A DNA stretch of 35,839 bases from an uncultured Clostridia bacterium (lineage in GTDB: Bacteria; Bacillota_I; Bacilli_A; RF39; UBA660), in NCBI GenBank assembly GCA_947643225.1, contig CANRVH010000015.1:1-35839 (forward strand), given 5' to 3'. The notes below the pieces were generated by a model. That model saw only the letters and a program-made list of their open reading frames with translations. It was not told the origin of the DNA and searched no databases. Position 1 is the stretch's first letter, and each line of letters starts with the position of its first letter. Shown piece by piece: positions 4,788-35,671 of the stretch. The position numbers and the translations under genes were made by a program.

Positions 4788-4806
4788 AAAGACTATTGCT
4801 AGTCTT
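4781..4806 (-). terminator. Intrinsic terminator of spoIVA
   Basis: The seven-base stem AAGACTA/TAGTCTT (4789-4795, 4800-4806) has loop TTGC. On the minus strand it is followed by a T-rich tail (4781-4788). It overlaps the spoIVA stop codon and separates it from the convergent gene ending at 4787. Confidence 0.75.
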
Positions 4807-6280
4807 AAATTACTATTGCTATCATGTTGTTTGATCCTTTATTTACTACTTTTGATAGTGTTTGTTGAAGTTTAAATCTAATATTATCTGGCATCATGTT
4901 AATCTTAGATTGAATTCCTTCTTGAACAATATTATCTAAACTTCTTCCAAATATTTCACTTTGCCAAATGGTTGTAGGATCTTTTTTGTGGTCTCTCATT
5001 AAGTATTCAATTAACTCTTTCGATTGATTTTCACTACCAATGATTGGTTCAAATGTTGATTCTACATCTACTTTAATCATATGAATAGATGGAGCGACTG
5101 CTTTTAATTTTACTCCATATCTAGGCCCCTGTTTGATAATTTCAGGTGTTTCTAATTTCATGTCATTTAAAGATGGAATAGCAACACCATATCCAGTTTG
5201 TTTAACCATTTTTAAAGCAAATTTAATTTGGTCATATTCTCTTTTGGCTGTATTAAATTCTTGGAAAATTCCTAGTAGGTCAGCTTTGCTTTTGACATCA
5301 ACATTAATAATGTCACTTAAAATTTTATCGTATAAATCATTTGGTGCTGTTAAGGTGATTGTTACAATTCCTGTTTTTGGATCAACATCTGAAACATAAG
5401 ATTTTTCTATTTCGTCACAATTTAAGAAATGATTGGTTATTGTTTCGATATCTCTTAATTTATCTACTTCAATGACACTTTCCTTAATTGCTTCAATATA
5501 TTTTTTCTTTAATGGATGATCGTGGTTTAAAATCGCAATCCATTCAGGCATACTTACTTTGATTTCTAAAACTGGAAATTCATATAAAGCTTCTCTTAAT
5601 ATTTTATACATATCTATTTCTGTCATTGCTTCTATATTCATTGGAATTACTGGGACATTATGTTTTTCTTTAATGGATTCTGCAAGACGTTCAGTTTCAG
5701 GAAGGGTAGGGTGTGTTGTATTTAATAAGACAATAAATGGTTTATTGATGTTCTTAAGTTCTGTTATTACTCTTTCTTCGGCATCTTGGTAATCACTTCT
5801 ATTAAATTCACCGATTGAACCATCTGTTGTTACCACGATACCAATTGTTGAGTGGTCTTTGATTACTTTTTCTGTTCCCACCTCAGCTGCCTCAATAAAT
5901 GGAATTTCTTCATCATACCATGGTGTTTTTACCATTCTAGGACCGTTTTCATCTTCTAGACCTTTTGCATTGTCAATGACGTAACCAACACAATCAACTA
6001 ATCTTATGTTACATGAAAAGTCATCTATTTTAATTTTAGCAGCTTGATTTGGAACAAATTTTGGTTCTGTTGTCATGATCATTTTTCCTTGAGCAGATTG
6101 GGGGATTTCATCCAGTGCTCTTTTTTTCTCATAGGTGCCTTCAATATTAGGAACAATTAGAGTTTCTACCACTCTTTTAATAAATGTACTTTTCCCAGTT
6201 CTAACAGCTCCAACTACTCCTAAATAAATATCTCCACCTGTTCTTTCGGCAATATTTTTAATAATTTCTAATTTTTCCAT
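4805..6280 (-). CDS. spoIVA: Stage IV sporulation protein A, spore-coat morphogenetic ATPase
   Basis: SpoIVA polymerises on the outer forespore membrane with ATP hydrolysis and forms the platform for coat assembly and cortex formation. The 491-residue length matches Bacillus SpoIVA (492). A Walker A motif GAVRTGKS is at residues 24-31 in a TRAFAC-like N-terminal domain. A likely Walker B stretch, RLVDCVGYVID, lies near residue 95, and the C-terminus ends in the hydrophobic IAIVI. AAAGG precedes the ATG. A terminator upstream (6322-6348) makes it a separate unit from der-spoVIF. No other protein family has this layout, so the call is firm and implies an endospore-forming lineage. Confidence 0.97.
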   Translation of the reverse strand: MEKLEIIKNIAERTGGDIYLGVVGAVRTGKSTFIKRVVETLIVPNIEGTYEKKRALDEIPQSAQGKMIMTTEPKFVPNQAAKIKIDDFSCNIRLVDCVGYVIDNAKGLEDENGPRMVKTPWYDEEIPFIEAAEVGTEKVIKDHSTIGIVVTTDGSIGEFNRSDYQDAEERVITELKNINKPFIVLLNTTHPTLPETERLAESIKEKHNVPVIPMNIEAMTEIDMYKILREALYEFPVLEIKVSMPEWIAILNHDHPLKKKYIEAIKESVIEVDKLRDIETITNHFLNCDEIEKSYVSDVDPKTGIVTITLTAPNDLYDKILSDIINVDVKSKADLLGIFQEFNTAKREYDQIKFALKMVKQTGYGVAIPSLNDMKLETPEIIKQGPRYGVKLKAVAPSIHMIKVDVESTFEPIIGSENQSKELIEYLMRDHKKDPTTIWQSEIFGRSLDNIVQEGIQSKINMMPDNIRFKLQQTLSKVVNKGSNNMIAIVI

Positions 6281-8942: not shown

Positions 8943-9683
8943 TTATTGTCTTTTGCTACTTTTGGATAGAACTTTGATTTTTGGTGAATCAGTATTTTTT
9001 TTGTTTTCTTTAATATTTACTGCTATACCTCCATTTACTCCTTTTACTATGCCTACCTCTTCTAATTGGGATTGAATCTTTTTTAGAATCTTTTTGATTT
9101 TTCTACTTAGATAAGATCTACTTATACCTAATTCTATTGCCAATTGTTCTTGGGTTATTTTCTCATCATCGATGAAATTGAAGTATTTCATAATAATATA
9201 TTTTTCTTCTTTAGGCAATTTTTCTATAATTCTTCTTGTTAGTTCATTTATTTCTTGTTGTTCATATTCTAGTACAAAATCTTGTTCAGAATCTTCCACC
9301 ACATCTTCTACATTTAATTGGTTTCCTTCGTTATCTTGGGCAAAAGCTTGATTTAGACTGATATCGTTTTTTCTTTTATTATTATTTCTTAAATGCATTA
9401 AAATTTCATTTCCAATACATTTTGATGCATATGATGAAAAGGTGGTGTTTTTATCTAAACTAAAGCTATTAACTGCTTTAATTAAGCCAATTATACCGAT
9501 GGAGATTAAGTCTTCGGTTTCATAAGGTGATGTACTGAATTTTTTAGTTATATGTACAACAAGTCTAATATTGTGTTCAATAATTTCATTCTTGGCTTGT
9601 TCATCTCCATTTTTTATTTTTTTAAATTTTTCTTCTAATTCCTTCTTGTCAAGTGGAGTTGGTAATTTTCCATTTAAGGGCAT
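8943..9683 (-). CDS. sigK: Sporulation sigma factor, SigK/SigE type
   Basis: This sigma-70 family factor would direct RNA polymerase to mother-cell sporulation promoters. Region 2 is clear (IIEHNIRLVVHITKKF, EDLISIGIIGLIKAV, FSSYASKCIGNEILMHLR), with a region 4 helix-turn-helix (QEQLAIELGISRSYLSRKIK). The N-terminal LPTPLDKKELEE and the NGDEQAKNEIIEHNIRL stretch resemble SigK more than SigE or SigG. Compared with Bacillus pro-SigK, the membrane-linked pro-sequence is absent, so no proteolytic activation is expected. A basic 40-residue tail after region 4 is unusual. AAGGAG precedes the ATG. Assignment to SigK rather than SigE is moderate; membership of the sporulation clade is strong. Confidence 0.85.
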   Translation of the reverse strand: MPLNGKLPTPLDKKELEEKFKKIKNGDEQAKNEIIEHNIRLVVHITKKFSTSPYETEDLISIGIIGLIKAVNSFSLDKNTTFSSYASKCIGNEILMHLRNNNKRKNDISLNQAFAQDNEGNQLNVEDVVEDSEQDFVLEYEQQEINELTRRIIEKLPKEEKYIIMKYFNFIDDEKITQEQLAIELGISRSYLSRKIKKILKKIQSQLEEVGIVKGVNGGIAVNIKENKKNTDSPKIKVLSKSSKRQ

Positions 9684-30457: not shown

Positions 30458-30490
30458 AAAAAAAGCTCTATTTTGTTTCAATAGGAGCTT
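30458..30490 (-). terminator. Intrinsic terminator of rnjA
   Basis: On the minus strand AAGCTC and AATAG-AGCTT pair across the last codons (one unpaired C) and a run of seven T follows at 30458-30464. The stop codon of rnjA is in the hairpin. Confidence 0.75.
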
Positions 30491-32165
30491 CTTTTTTAAT
30501 ATCCAGAATAACTGGTAGAATAATTGGTTTTCTTCCTGTTAATTCATTGATATATGGAATTAGTTTTGATACTAATTCATTTTTTATGATTGCAAATGTT
30601 GAGCGTGGATCTGCTAGTTGTTCTTTTATGGTTTTTTCTGCTAGGATTTCTATTTTTTTAAGTAGTTCTTCATTTTCGTTTACTTGAACGAAACCTCTTG
30701 TTGTGATATTTGGTTTAATTAATAATTCTCTTTTTTTCATATCAACATTTACAATTACTACTAATATTCCATCATTTGCCATTGATTTTCTATCTTTGAT
30801 TACTGTACTTCCGATTTCTCCAATACGATTTCCATCAACATAAACATCGGCTCCTGGCATACTTTCTCCTTTAGTGATTTGATGATTGATTAAATTTAAT
30901 GTATCTCCATTTTTTATTACGAATGTATTTTCTTTTGGTATACCACAATCAATTCCTAGGTTAGCATGATGTTTTAACATACGATAATCTCCATGAAAAG
31001 GCATTAGATATTTTGGATTGATTAATCTAATCATTAATTTTAATTCCTCTTCATTAGCATGACCTGATGTATGTAAGTCACTTAGGGCTTTATTGGTATA
31101 AACACGAACACCACTTAAGTATAGTTTATTGATAATTTTTGAAATGCTTAAGGCATTTCCAGGGATAGCAGATGATGAGAATATGACGATATCATCAGGC
31201 CTTAATTTAATGTATTTGTGGCTATTAGTGGACATGCGGGAAAGTGCTGCAAGGGGTTCTCCTTGAGAACCAGTACATAGAATAGTAATTTCTCCTGGTT
31301 TGTAGTTTTTGACTTCATCTGGTGTTACTAATAGTTCTTTATGGTCGATGTATCCTCCTTCTGTTGATATTTTTATATTGTTTTCCATACTGCGTCCAAA
31401 TACACAGATTTTTCTGTTGTGTTTGAAACAGGTTTCAAAGATGTGTTTTACGCGATAAATATTTGAAGCAAAGGTTGCAATAATGATTCTTTCTTGTGGG
31501 TATAAATCAAACATTTCATTTAAGGCGTCATCTACTTTGGATTCACTTGTTGAAAATCCTTCATTTAGTGCATTGGTTGAGTCACTAATTAATAAATCTA
31601 CACCTTCATGGCCGATTTTTGCTATTTTATATAAATCAGCGACAGGTCCAATAGGAGTTAAGTCGAATTTAAAATCTCCAGTAGTTACTATTCTACCATC
31701 TGGAGTAGTTAAAGATATTCCATGGGAATCTGGAATAGAGTGAGTAGTTCTAAAAAAATCTACTTCAATTTCTCCAAATTTTAATTTTGTATCTTCTGTA
31801 TAGATATTTAAGTGATCATAGCGAATATTTCTATCTTCTAATTTTACAGCAATTAATTCTTTAGCATGTCTTGGTGCATAAATTTCTGGTATGTTAATAC
31901 TTTGTAGTAAGAAAGGAATGCTTCCTATATGATCCTCATGTCCATGTGTAATTAATAAAGCTTTTATTTTTTCTTCGTTTTCTTTTAAAAATGTAAAGTC
32001 AGGTAGAACATAATCGATTCCTAAAAGTTCACTTTCGGGAAAACTAACTCCTGCATCAATAATAACAATATTGTCTTTATGCATTACACAATACATATTT
32101 TTTCCGACTTCTCCTAAACCTCCTAAAACAACTATCTTTGTTCCATTTGGTTTTTTTACTTCCAT
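30468..32165 (-). CDS. rnjA: Ribonuclease J
   Basis: RNase J is a 5'-3' exonuclease and endonuclease of the metallo-beta-lactamase/beta-CASP family acting on mRNA and rRNA. The zinc-binding HGHEDH is at residues 74-79, with further motifs RTTHSIPDSHG, TGDFKFD, the beta-CASP ATFASNIYRV and LHTSGHANEEE. At 565 residues it is full length, including the C-terminal domain. AAAGGAG precedes the ATG. It lies convergent to rny, so two decay enzymes share the locus. J1 against J2 cannot be decided from one copy. Confidence 0.96.
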   Translation of the reverse strand: MEVKKPNGTKIVVLGGLGEVGKNMYCVMHKDNIVIIDAGVSFPESELLGIDYVLPDFTFLKENEEKIKALLITHGHEDHIGSIPFLLQSINIPEIYAPRHAKELIAVKLEDRNIRYDHLNIYTEDTKLKFGEIEVDFFRTTHSIPDSHGISLTTPDGRIVTTGDFKFDLTPIGPVADLYKIAKIGHEGVDLLISDSTNALNEGFSTSESKVDDALNEMFDLYPQERIIIATFASNIYRVKHIFETCFKHNRKICVFGRSMENNIKISTEGGYIDHKELLVTPDEVKNYKPGEITILCTGSQGEPLAALSRMSTNSHKYIKLRPDDIVIFSSSAIPGNALSISKIINKLYLSGVRVYTNKALSDLHTSGHANEEELKLMIRLINPKYLMPFHGDYRMLKHHANLGIDCGIPKENTFVIKNGDTLNLINHQITKGESMPGADVYVDGNRIGEIGSTVIKDRKSMANDGILVVIVNVDMKKRELLIKPNITTRGFVQVNENEELLKKIEILAEKTIKEQLADPRSTFAIIKNELVSKLIPYINELTGRKPIILPVILDIKKEAPIETK

Positions 32166-32274: not shown

Positions 32275-32732
32275 ATAAAGGTTCTTCTTATCATTTTTTA
32301 GATGCGAGGTGAACAGGAGATTAAAATTGTAAATTGTATGCTTTCTTTTTTCATATTCTAAAAAGTATTTTAATGATTCTTCTCGATTTTTATTATGGTC
32401 CTAGGGAATAGTATCCATTAGGTTTAGGAATAATTGTTATTGTTTTTTGATAATCTTCTTTTACTTTTTACTTTTTTTTAAATATTCATAATTTTTTCCT
32501 CTTAATAGATATCCCTTAGTACTTAAATTATGATCTTTTTCCATCTATTCATTTAAAAGTTCAATACCTTCTTGGTTCTTTTCTTACTAGTATAATATTT
32601 AGTAGCATCATATAGTAGCTGTTTTTTTATGAAGTCTTCTTTTTATAGTCTAGAAGAGCTTAGTAATAGTCTATATTTCATAGTCATTTAATTGTTGTAG
32701 AGCATATTCTGTTTGTTCAAATTCATCTCTTT
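32275..32732 (-). pseudogene. Decayed TPR-repeat gene
   Basis: Minus-strand fragments in different frames read as a TPR protein: KRDEFEQTEYALQQLNDYE, then KYYTSK, then GYLLRGKNYEYLKK, then KEDYQKTITIIPKPNGYYSL, then REESLKYFLEYEKRKH. Several stops and frameshifts break it. The LLRGKNYEYLKK..KEDYQKTITIIP segment fits the TPR pattern. It follows the large helical-repeat gene on the same strand and may be a broken relative or its former 3' part. The remaining bases up to 32165 show no gene. Confidence 0.65.
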
Positions 32733-32738
32733 TAGGTT

Positions 32739-34745
32739 TTATATTTTGTTGTTAGTTCTTTTTTTTACTTTAGTTGTAGATTTATTTAAAAATGGTAAAA
32801 ATATTTGTAATTCTTTGTCTAATTCTTCACAGATTCCATCTAAATTATTTTGTTGATAATACAAATAAGCTTCGTTATATTTTTCCTTTTGTATTAATTT
32901 TTTAAGATTATTTATATGTACTATTAATTGACGATTTTTTTTAGCTGGTAATTCAAATTTATTATTATCTTTTGTTCTTTTTAGAGAATTATTTATATTT
33001 AATTCTTTTTTAATCTTTATTAATAAAGTTCTATATAAAGTAAAATAATTTTTATTTAGGCTATTTTTTGTTTTTTGATGCCACTCTTTACTCTCGAGTA
33101 TACTTAAGGCTTCTATATAGTATCCTTGATTAATTGCTGTAAAAAATTGTTCCTCTATATCTTTTTCCTCATATGTAAAATGTTGAAAATCATTTTTTGT
33201 TATACCATTTTCTTTAATTTGTTTTAGCATTTTGATTATTTCTAAAATATATTTATAATTATATAGTTTTGTTTGTTGTTCTGTTTGTTGTTCTGTTTGT
33301 TGTTTTGTTTGTTGCTTTGTTTGTTGTTTTGTTTGTTGTTTTGTTTGTTCTATGCTTTCTAGAATATCTTCTATTATATATCTATATATGGTAAATTCTT
33401 TTGAATCTTGAACAGTTATTTCAGAAATAGTTGTCATAATGTATGCCTCTATATAGTCGTTATACTTTAATGCTTCAAAGAATCTTTTAGATGGCTCATA
33501 TATACTATTGAAATAAATAGGATTTTCTTTTTTGATCAATACTTTTTTTTGGTTTATGTTATTCATTTTTTTAATTAGTGTTAATATAGTATAATAGATA
33601 CGACTATTTTCTTTTTTTAAGAATTCTTCTAGATAGGATTCAACTATTCTATATTCCCTATGATAAATTAAGGTAGTTAATTCATTAATTGTATATATGG
33701 TCATTTTATTTTGTTGTTCTTGATTTTCTAATTTCTTACTGTTTTGTTGATCTTGCTCTATCAGTTTTTTTAGTAAAGTTCTATACATCATTAAGGTTTT
33801 ATTATTTGGACTATAGTCAATGCATTTTTCTATACTTTGATAGGCAAAATGGAAATCGTTTTCTTTTATAGCTGTGTGAAATATTTTATGAATAGAAAAA
33901 GCTTCGTTATTTTGATTTAAATAGTCATAGTTGATATTTTTTTCTGGTAATGGTTCTTTAGTATTTTTGATTTGCAAATAGGTTTTAATAATCTTTATGT
34001 AGTCGTTTATTCTTCCATTTATATTAAAATGTTTATGTGAAAGAAGTTTTTGAAGATGTTCTAATGCTTCTTCATAATTTTCTTCTTCAATATTTTTTAG
34101 GAAGTGATCATAGTGTTCTTCTTGTTCCTGTATTTCTTCTTTCTTTCTCTTACTTGTTTTTGTCATTACATTTTTTGTTAATATAGAAAATAATAATGTA
34201 CTAATATTGTTCGATTGTTTTCTTTCTTTTTCAGCAAATTCAAATTTTATAATTGATTGATTAGCTTTTTTAAAATTATGTGATAATACTGCATCACTAA
34301 AATTTATATAATACTGATAGTAACTTTCTGTATTATGGTCCTTATCCCCTACTAAAAGGAGATTATCAAGAGTGTCCAAAAAACTAAAGTCTTTTTCATC
34401 ACCTAATATTTCTTTAAGCAAAGTAAAATAAAGTACTATGTGATTGTCATAGTTATGATTTATTTGGTTGATCATACTGTTATATAAATTATCATATGCT
34501 TCACTAAAATTTTTATTGAAAATATTTTCTGTAAATTGTTTAAAATAATTACTTGCTTTTTTTATTTTTTCCTTCGTGGGTGCGGTGATTTTATATTTTC
34601 CTCTTGCTATTTTTTCTAATTTTCCTTCTTGAATAGCTTTTTTAATATAATAATCGTTTAATCCATACTCTTTTAATTCTTTTGTTGTTATTTTTTCTAA
34701 TTCGGATTCTTCTATTTTCTTCATTACTAATTCTAAATCTATCAT
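32739..34745 (-). CDS. Large helical-repeat protein with AbiEi-like N-terminus
   Basis: The first 42 residues (IDLELVMKKIEESELEKITT, then KELKEYGLNDYYIKKAIQEG, then LEKIARGKYKI) resemble the winged-helix of AbiEi-type antitoxins. The remaining 620 residues are helical, with recurring units of the form F..A....Y.EA...L......NS.....Y..LL, similar to TPR-like solenoids. In the middle are seven QQTK/QQTE units. There is no membrane or signal segment. The ATG at 34745 follows AAAAGGA; a longer frame from 34781 lacks a ribosome binding site. It ends in a basic tail. Function unknown; I suspect DNA binding plus a protein scaffold. A decayed TPR gene follows. Confidence 0.7.
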   Translation of the reverse strand: MIDLELVMKKIEESELEKITTKELKEYGLNDYYIKKAIQEGKLEKIARGKYKITAPTKEKIKKASNYFKQFTENIFNKNFSEAYDNLYNSMINQINHNYDNHIVLYFTLLKEILGDEKDFSFLDTLDNLLLVGDKDHNTESYYQYYINFSDAVLSHNFKKANQSIIKFEFAEKERKQSNNISTLLFSILTKNVMTKTSKRKKEEIQEQEEHYDHFLKNIEEENYEEALEHLQKLLSHKHFNINGRINDYIKIIKTYLQIKNTKEPLPEKNINYDYLNQNNEAFSIHKIFHTAIKENDFHFAYQSIEKCIDYSPNNKTLMMYRTLLKKLIEQDQQNSKKLENQEQQNKMTIYTINELTTLIYHREYRIVESYLEEFLKKENSRIYYTILTLIKKMNNINQKKVLIKKENPIYFNSIYEPSKRFFEALKYNDYIEAYIMTTISEITVQDSKEFTIYRYIIEDILESIEQTKQQTKQQTKQQTKQQTEQQTEQQTKLYNYKYILEIIKMLKQIKENGITKNDFQHFTYEEKDIEEQFFTAINQGYYIEALSILESKEWHQKTKNSLNKNYFTLYRTLLIKIKKELNINNSLKRTKDNNKFELPAKKNRQLIVHINNLKKLIQKEKYNEAYLYYQQNNLDGICEELDKELQIFLPFLNKSTTKVKKRTNNKI
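33267..33350 (-). repeat. Seven 12-bp tandem repeats in the helical-repeat gene
   Basis: Seven adjacent 12-bp units (plus-strand form TTTTGTTTGTTG with T/C changes) encode QQTK or QQTE in frame. The unit is a multiple of three, so copy-number change alters linker length but not the frame. Confidence 0.9.
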
Positions 34746-34851
34746 ATTTTTTCTGTCCTTTTCTACTAATGATTTAAACATATATGTGCTTATTAGTCTT
34801 TATTTTATCATAAATTCTTCTTTATGATACATTTTTTTCATTAAACTATGA

Positions 34852-34888: not shown

Positions 34889-35671
34889 GTGAAGTTAGAT
34901 GGAAAAGTTGCTATTGTTACAGGTGGTGCGATGGGTAATGGGCTAGGAATTGTTAAAATGTTTTTAAAATATGGAGCAGATGTTGTTATTATTGACTACT
35001 CTGATCAAATTAATGTTACTATTCAAGAGTTAAAAAGTCCTAAAGTTACTGGTTATAAAGCAGATATTCGGGATGTAGATAGACTTCAAAAAATTGTGAA
35101 AGATGTTATTGCTAAAAAAGGAAAAATTGATATTTTGGTTAACAATGCGGGAGTTGCTAGATTAGATAAATTTGTTGATATGTCAGATGAAGTTAGAGAT
35201 TTACATTTTGATATTAATATTCGAGGTACTTGGAATATTACTAAGTTAGTTGTTCCTTTTATGGTTGAGAATCAATATGGAAAAATTGTTAATTTATCTA
35301 GTGTAACAGGACCTATGGTTGCTGATAGTGGGGAGGTTGCCTATGCTACTACAAAGGCTGCTTTAATAGGGTTTACTAAAGGTCTTGCGATGGAACTTGT
35401 CGATTATCATATTAATGTTAATGCTATTATGCCTGGATATATTATGACTCCTATGGTTGAAGGAATTGCTAAGGATTCTAATCAGGTTGATCCTAGTAGT
35501 GTGATTAAGGGAATTGCAAGTGGTATTCCAATGAAGAGATTAGGAACTATAGAAGAGTTAGGGGAGTTAGCTGCCTTTTTAGCTAGTGATGAAGCAAGTT
35601 ATATAACTGGCCAAGGTATTGTTATTGATGGAGGATCTACGTTACCAGAAACCATGAGTGTTGGTGCCTAA
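34889..35671 (+). CDS. ucpA: UcpA-like short-chain dehydrogenase/reductase
   Basis: A classical SDR oxidoreductase, cytosolic, using NAD(P)(H). The cofactor loop reads TGGAMGNGLG (residues 11-20), NNAG is at about 88, and Ser in NLSSVTG with YATTKAA forms the active site. The segments DMSDEVRDLHFDINIRGTWN, SSVTGPMVADSGEVAYATTK and the terminal GGSTLPETMSVG closely match E. coli UcpA, whose substrate is not settled. Length is 260 residues. It starts at GTG after GAGGAGG. It stands alone beside an IS3-type end; similarity to a protobacterial protein could hint at transfer, but this subfamily is widespread. Confidence 0.85.
   Translation: MKLDGKVAIVTGGAMGNGLGIVKMFLKYGADVVIIDYSDQINVTIQELKSPKVTGYKADIRDVDRLQKIVKDVIAKKGKIDILVNNAGVARLDKFVDMSDEVRDLHFDINIRGTWNITKLVVPFMVENQYGKIVNLSSVTGPMVADSGEVAYATTKAALIGFTKGLAMELVDYHINVNAIMPGYIMTPMVEGIAKDSNQVDPSSVIKGIASGIPMKRLGTIEELGELAAFLASDEASYITGQGIVIDGGSTLPETMSVGA

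Follow-up and report, generated by a model that had tools for sequence, protein, structure and literature searches.

A putative transcription regulator family with an AbiEi-type winged-helix head and a TPR-like superhelix in uncultured gut Bacilli

Regulators that join a helix-turn-helix (HTH) head to tetratricopeptide repeats (TPR) are already known. In the RRNPP-type regulators (Rgg, PlcR, NprR, ComR) a DNA-binding head is followed by a TPR-type superhelix, and superhelices of this type serve as protein-binding surfaces. Here we describe a related but distinct arrangement in a 35,839-nucleotide stretch of contig CANRVH010000015.1 (the window, from an uncultured bacterium of the order RF39), where a minus-strand gene at 32739-34745 encodes an AbiEi-type head on a long helical body. 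Two further described systems bear on this gene. AbiEi antitoxins bind DNA through a winged-helix head, and the N-terminal winged-helix domain of S. agalactiae AbiEi is built of three helices followed by an antiparallel sheet (PMC7319586). Sigma-70 factors with accessory TPR domains (TPR_MalT) are described from cyanobacteria (PMC11119718). AbiEi heads and TPR-bearing sigma factors are each known (PMC7319586, PMC11119718); a limited literature search found no description of an AbiEi head combined with a superhelix, nor of the linkage reported below between sigma factors, a TPR protein (B) and the family of the window gene (A).

Family A differs from the RRNPP regulators in the family of its head, in its length and in the R3H domain. 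With the AbiEi antitoxins of the type IV AbiE systems, the window protein shares the three helices and sheet of its predicted head (PMC7319586); it differs in having a helical body of about 600 residues and no AbiEii partner. The cyanobacterial proteins, in which sigma-70 is joined to TPR, resemble a sigma-B fusion found in one relative, G022 (PMC11119718), whereas in the present lineage a gene of its own usually encodes the TPR protein, and a component with a winged-helix head is added. We regard the window gene as a truncated, fast-evolving member of family A, most likely, at a confidence slightly above even, a sequence-specific DNA-binding transcription regulator acting with alternative sigma factors or a partner. 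It is probably a regulator rather than a defence or toxin-antitoxin protein.

Winged-helix head, helical body and eroded tail

The gene lies within a minus-strand open reading frame (ORF) at 32739-34781. An in-frame ATG at 34781 would give a product of 680 amino acids (aa), and the starts of homologues align with 34745, which gives 668. The coordinates proposed in a first-pass annotation of the window were correct, and the strand, absent from it, is minus. The features of the locus are as follows.

32739..34745, minus strand: AbiEi-headed helical-solenoid gene, 668 codons, homology-supported start
34581..34745, minus strand: AbiEi_4-type winged-helix head, residues 1-55 (Pfam match proper 34593-34691)
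32742..34580, minus strand: degenerate TPR-like helical body, collinear with the body of R3H-bearing members (364 columns, probability 95.9 without the head)
33266..33349, minus strand: in-frame 12-bp tandem array, TKQQ-like linker, 7.0 copies, 94% matches
32278..32738, minus strand: eroded 3' end of the AbiEi-headed gene, remnant of a C-terminal TPR tail, with 6 further stop codons and 1 frame change
30468..32165, minus strand: ribonuclease J gene (rnj), downstream neighbour, from Pfam and synteny in relatives
34889..35671, plus strand: short-chain dehydrogenase (SDR) gene, divergent neighbour, from Pfam, syntenic in the relative G003

Throughout, G000 is the genome of the window, and the other G and L numbers denote relative genomes and fetched loci. 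In the 680-aa reading, residues 31-63 match the Pfam family AbiEi_4 (PF13338) at E 1.3e-5 and 25.7 bits (cut-off 25), and this head match recurs in the genome search. In a profile-profile comparison (hhalign), the family heads matched ordinary AbiEi antitoxins with a probability of 97.7 (E 1.3e-12, 57 columns), against at most 2.6 in 20 column shuffles. The head profile was made from the first 75 residues of family ORFs longer than 330 aa, some of them headless (66 sequences used), and the ordinary AbiEi profile comprised 22 antitoxins plus the seed. AlphaFold models the window protein (from 23 sequences; mean predicted local distance difference test score, pLDDT, 59.9) with a helix at residues 4-13, a strand at 18-20, helices at 21-26 and 31-39, and strands at 43-47 and 50-53. 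This head block (residues 4-53, pLDDT 69-88) thus comprises three helices and two wing strands. The first-pass annotation had read the N-terminus as an AbiEi-like head and had named, in advance, failure to match any winged-helix fold as grounds for abandoning that reading; a winged-helix fold is what the Pfam score, the profile comparison and the model converge on. Sequence searches of solved structures with the head alone returned two matches, the best at E 0.008 (PSD-1), and no AbiEi.

Beyond the head, the model is nearly all helix, with confidence too low for use past about residue 340. In a model of the homologue L101 (31 sequences, mean pLDDT 78.8) the winged-helix head recurs and a helical solenoid extends as far as residue 515; a disordered linker, a mixed helix-strand unit at about 578-635 and a C-terminal helical region follow. 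The mixed unit occupies the place of the Pfam R3H domain, whose match falls below the cut-off in L101 and above it in G037 and G022. With the head removed, the body of the window subfamily aligns with the R3H-bearing main group over 364 collinear columns (probability 95.9, E 6.1e-9), and a reversed profile and 10 shuffles gave probabilities of at most 0.2. The long helical body that had been proposed behind the head is therefore supported by both model and body profile. In Pfam, the window protein has weak TPR matches elsewhere along its length (best E 0.072) and no R3H domain. Among solved structures, profile A2 found no matches and profile A3 chiefly designed and other TPR proteins. The model of the homologue, when searched with Foldseek, gave generic TPR scaffolds (such as Ctr9, APC/C and Ski-complex subunits) at template modelling (TM) scores of at most 0.20 among the 50 matches listed, so these matches indicate the repeat type only.

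The syntenic orthologue in G003, of the same genus (SDR gene, family gene, RNase J gene), measures 898 aa when read from the first ATG, and TPR matches lie close to its C-terminus. The C-terminal part of this orthologue aligns past the window stop at 32739 down to 32278, in the same frame and then in another, and the tail remnant scores 50.1 and 30.4 bits against a maximum of 22.7 in 200 shuffles. What had been taken for a decayed TPR gene at the locus is the eroded 3' end of the same gene, whose tail the 898-aa orthologue retains; a separate decayed TPR gene is ruled out by the alignment of the G003 tail across 32278-32738. The orthologue in G002 (696 aa) ends at about the same place as the window gene, and the DNA downstream of it holds no tail remnant.

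An estimated 157 or so aligned tail codons carry seven lesions (six stops, one frame change), and the 668 upstream codons carry none. At the tail rate about 30 would be expected in 668 codons, and by a rough Poisson argument the probability of finding zero is about 1e-13. Comparing G000 with G003 by the Nei-Gojobori method gives a ratio of non-synonymous to synonymous divergence (dN/dS) of 0.36 overall, with 0.17 for the head, at a dS of about 1.1, which is near saturation; the comparison genes give 0.033 (rnj) and 0.091 (SDR gene). Against G002 the values are 0.70 overall and 0.68 in the head. Because of the lesion-free 668 codons and these ratios, we conclude that the gene, although truncated, is kept under purifying selection, yet is fast-evolving. 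Conservation and purifying selection were a further point on which the first-pass annotation had let its reading depend, and the syntenic relatives and the values against G003 speak for both.

The tandem repeat at 33266-33349 has no counterpart at the aligned place in the G003 protein and is likely a site of length variation. The rnj gene adjoins the family gene also in G003 and G206 and lies one gene apart from it in G002. Elsewhere in the window, a SpoIVA gene lies at 4805-6280 and a sigma-70 gene at 8943-9683. IS elements (insertion sequences) had been suggested nearby; no transposase family was found by Pfam among 27 of the 29 window ORFs of at least 150 aa, smaller ORFs lying outside the scan, and this suggestion is dropped. 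One window HTH protein shows some similarity to a transposase HTH (E 0.07), well below the cut-off, and six of the 27 scanned ORFs had no match at the thresholds used.

Family A, protein B and sigma-70 factors

A single-sequence search matched 4 of 98 genomes, namely G000 itself, G002, G003 and G029 (head only). Within the same bacterial family, an eight-protein profile extended this to at least 86 of 386 genomes and at least 52 of 150 genera, counts that are lower bounds because at most two candidates were scored per genome. Seven of the 86 genomes yielded short frames of 58-217 aa only, and 79 remain. The window protein matches the family profile at E 2.1e-205, a value that is not independent, as the protein is itself a row of the profile. 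In a class-wide draw, a profile of the R3H group matched 17 of 395 genomes, all inside the same bacterial family. A scan of genome contigs yielded 34 loci, titled uncultured Bacilli, Tenericutes, Erysipelotrichaceae and the like, many of these loci belonging to isolates with the label Lapin, and one scan of viral contigs found no relatives.

In the main group, Pfam gives the order head, TPR repeats, R3H and further TPR. Among 78 family ORFs, of which one is a sigma fusion (leaving 77), hidden Markov models (HMMs) find the head in 57 and the R3H unit in 42; the head count is too low, as its HMM misses L037 and L038, whose heads Pfam detects. The window subfamily lacks R3H, which is absent from the window protein, G003, G002 and G206 and, by HMM, from G286 and G362. 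The window genome holds a second, shorter family member of 417 aa, and one genome carries four family A ORFs in tandem (L154:6209-14275; 442, 801, 659 and 764 aa).

Exchange between alleles is suggested by one pair of sister species, G286 and G362 (L095:7202-9826, L136:1249-3873). Of seven neighbour genes compared, six share 94.5-100% identity and the seventh 88.5%. In the A proteins, identity per 50-residue block is 38-70% as far as residue 450 and 92-100% thereafter (90% in the last block), and dS drops from 0.64-0.76 across the initial 440 codons to 0.03 in the remainder. Judged from the sequences, this mosaic indicates recombination within the gene rather than positive selection, because synonymous divergence jumps too. 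Milder mosaics occur in L060, L105 and L107. A hypervariable N-terminal half as a rule of the family was rejected: it was seen in one pair, and no rule appeared in 45 of 108 pairs.

The gene neighbourhood was analysed in 67 loci bearing a family member, a non-random choice of mostly stronger family-profile matches that leaves out the window itself, six Pfam AbiEi_4 loci (L045-L050) and the 2-base stretch L051; the locus L043, also analysed, had no family member. None of these 67 loci has an AbiEii-like gene nearby, compared with 16 of 22 ordinary AbiEi loci, for which the flanks were shorter. Together with the window's own neighbours, rnj and the SDR gene, this agrees with the earlier remark that no AbiEii toxin gene follows. 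No AbiEi C-terminal antitoxin domain was matched in the window protein either (Pfam and PADLOC stop at the head; NCBIfam gave none). Because neither of these two defining features, the C-terminal antitoxin domain and an adjacent AbiEii, was found, we class family A with the transcription regulators, as a variant whose head is of antitoxin type, and not with the AbiEi antitoxins.

Two other kinds of gene recur beside A. The TPR protein B (about 330 aa) is encoded directly upstream of A on the same strand in 19 of the 67 loci; with start codons set mechanically, 16 of these 19 pairs overlap, and the other gaps are 1, 1 and 118 bases. Of 386 genomes, 26 have a strong B match (E <1e-40), and A is present in 23 of these (p 1.2e-13); when the 19 genomes that seeded the B profile are excluded, the figure is 4 of 7 (p 0.023). 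At 11 of the 67 loci, a sigma-70 gene is at most two genes away from A (L040, L042, L083, L091, L099, L144, L146, L147, L160, L162, L173; binomial p 6.6e-6, or 1.8e-4 with three of one genus collapsed). Widening the span to three genes adds L098 and L145 (13/67; p 1.0e-5, or 1.8e-4 with one genus collapsed). The background was set at 9.2 sigma genes for each genome, from the 221 counted in 24 hand-picked genomes of which one (G144) is not A-bearing, and at 1.1 kb per ORF. In G010 (L040), sigma, B and A form one gene row.

The same modules also occur fused. In G022 (L197:5532-8153), a single 874-aa ORF consists of sigma-70 regions 2 to 4 followed by B (B part E 3.3e-52). In G135 (L091:8986-11538), an 851-aa ORF combines sigma regions 2 and 4, a family A helical module and a sigma C-terminal module, M2, which by eye resembles an extra region 4. 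Over 119 residues its A module has 53% identity to the A protein encoded two genes further along; B and A follow the fusion. A 444-aa ORF in G346 (L220:6630-7961) consists of a sigma-like part fused to the A module seen in G135. Among the compared ORFs, a set with a few duplicated loci, 49 have the A module and 36 are sigma-like; two are both, and one sigma-like ORF carries B.

Of 79 A-bearing genomes, 28 have M2 (E <1e-10), as do 10 of 80 A-lacking ones (p 7.8e-4); once the six genomes that supplied the profile are removed, the counts are 22 of 73 and 10 of 80 (p 0.0095). For the A-lacking set, 140 genomes were taken at random from 300 and the first 80 of these were searched; two of the 80 (G027, G205) match the other of the two family A profiles. 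The window's own genome gave no M2 match. Two 1192-aa proteins in the same gene context (L195:6948-10523, L196:4118-7693) begin with a sigma-70 part and carry additional HTH units that resemble region 4. SpoIVA occurs in 333 of 386 lineage genomes; its frequency in A-bearing (83/86) and A-lacking (250/300) genomes differs at p 0.0011 without phylogenetic control, the 86 still including 7 ordinary AbiEi-type matches, and a spore link was judged too weak to claim.

Competing explanations for the window gene

We postulate that the winged-helix head would hold an operator or promoter, while the superhelix would hold a protein partner, which in relatives would be protein B, an alternative sigma-70 factor or both; the activity of the sigma factor would thereby be directed or restrained at chosen promoters. 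Because A is repeatedly linked to and fused with sigma-70, it may position or restrain sigma or B. We infer DNA binding, physical contact with B or sigma and the direction of regulation from these arrangements, and the unlinked window copy would still do a regulator's job, with a presumed sigma role there. Several observations weigh against this account. No sigma gene lies within three genes of A in 54 of the 67 loci, and those found close to A belong to several types, one (L099) being a 74-aa fragment, so that some of the adjacency may be chance. The window copy adjoins neither B nor a sigma gene, its neighbours being rnj and the SDR gene; it has no R3H and has lost its TPR tail. The window sigma gene at 8943-9683 is about 23 kb away, and the genome has eight Sigma70_r2 matches. 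The B of this genome (335 aa, L216:7319-8323) is on another contig with no A or sigma beside it, and an adjacent B is absent from the whole window subfamily (G000, G002, G003, G286, G362, G206), which is also without R3H. The collinear counterpart of the fused module, window residues 364-456 of the 680-aa reading, reaches a probability of 6.6 (E 0.0056), not significant alone. Finally, the B and M2 associations that include seed genomes are inflated, their profiles having been built mainly from A-bearing genomes, and the association tests are without phylogenetic control.

In a different history, the family would function elsewhere and the window copy would be a dying paralogue, truncated and now functionless. 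The eroded TPR tail, the G002 copy that is likewise tailless and without a remnant, the low-complexity expansion, a dN/dS roughly tenfold higher than for rnj (0.70 in the comparison with G002) and the shorter second member in the same genome would all fit. It is nevertheless an unlikely outcome, since the 668 codons are free of lesions where about 30 would be expected (P(0) about 1e-13 on the rough Poisson argument) and the dN/dS against G003, near saturation as dS is, stays at 0.36, with 0.17 in the head. A protein that tethers DNA as a scaffold without a direct role in transcription, for instance in chromosome organisation or RNA handling, is a shade less probable still. The first-pass annotation had suggested such a DNA-tethered scaffold, and the long solenoid, the R3H of relatives, which would bind single-stranded nucleic acid, the TPR scaffolds as best fold matches (with TM at most 0.20 among those listed, a matter of repeat type only) and the RNase J gene adjoining part of the window subfamily remain compatible with it. 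The proximity of sigma-70 and the fusions in relatives point to transcription, however, and make a regulator likelier, and the RNase J adjacency is confined to few genomes. We consider improbable a peptide- or ligand-sensing regulator of RRNPP-like logic, with B or the superhelix sensing the signal: the broad order of HTH head and TPR-like superhelix is the same, but the head is of another type (AbiEi winged helix), the superhelix is far longer and the long forms carry R3H. Least probable of all is an AbiEi-like antitoxin or other defence component. The head matches AbiEi models in Pfam and PADLOC, yet the best PADLOC match spans 43 of 198 profile positions, head only; with AbiEii-like genes in 0/67 family loci against 16/22 ordinary ones (on shorter flanks) and no relative in the one viral-contig scan, the toxin-antitoxin or defence reading, of which a defence role had been raised at the outset, is disfavoured.

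A transcription regulator working with sigma factors or a partner accordingly remains our preferred explanation. In a bolder form, which we offer tentatively and hold with some doubt, family A may be the DNA-tethering arm of a three-part transcription switch in spore-gene-bearing gut Bacilli. Such a switch would consist of an alternative sigma-70 factor with an extra C-terminal module resembling region 4, the TPR protein B, and the AbiEi-headed superhelix A, often with R3H, bridging sigma to chosen DNA or RNA. It may have evolved by recruitment of an antitoxin-type winged helix, with A or B modules fused to sigma in some species and A alleles exchanged by intragenic recombination.

Possible meaning for sigma control in gut Bacilli

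Family A places an antitoxin-type DNA-binding head outside a toxin-antitoxin pair, and the Pfam and PADLOC models for AbiEi match such proteins by their head. The order RF39 is predicted to be able to form spores, with a regulation markedly unlike that of the Erysipelotrichales (PMC10868615). The sigma-B-A row in G010 (L040) and the fusions make the sigma idea directly testable. If the link to sigma is true, family A would represent an undescribed control of alternative sigma factors in uncultured gut Bacilli.
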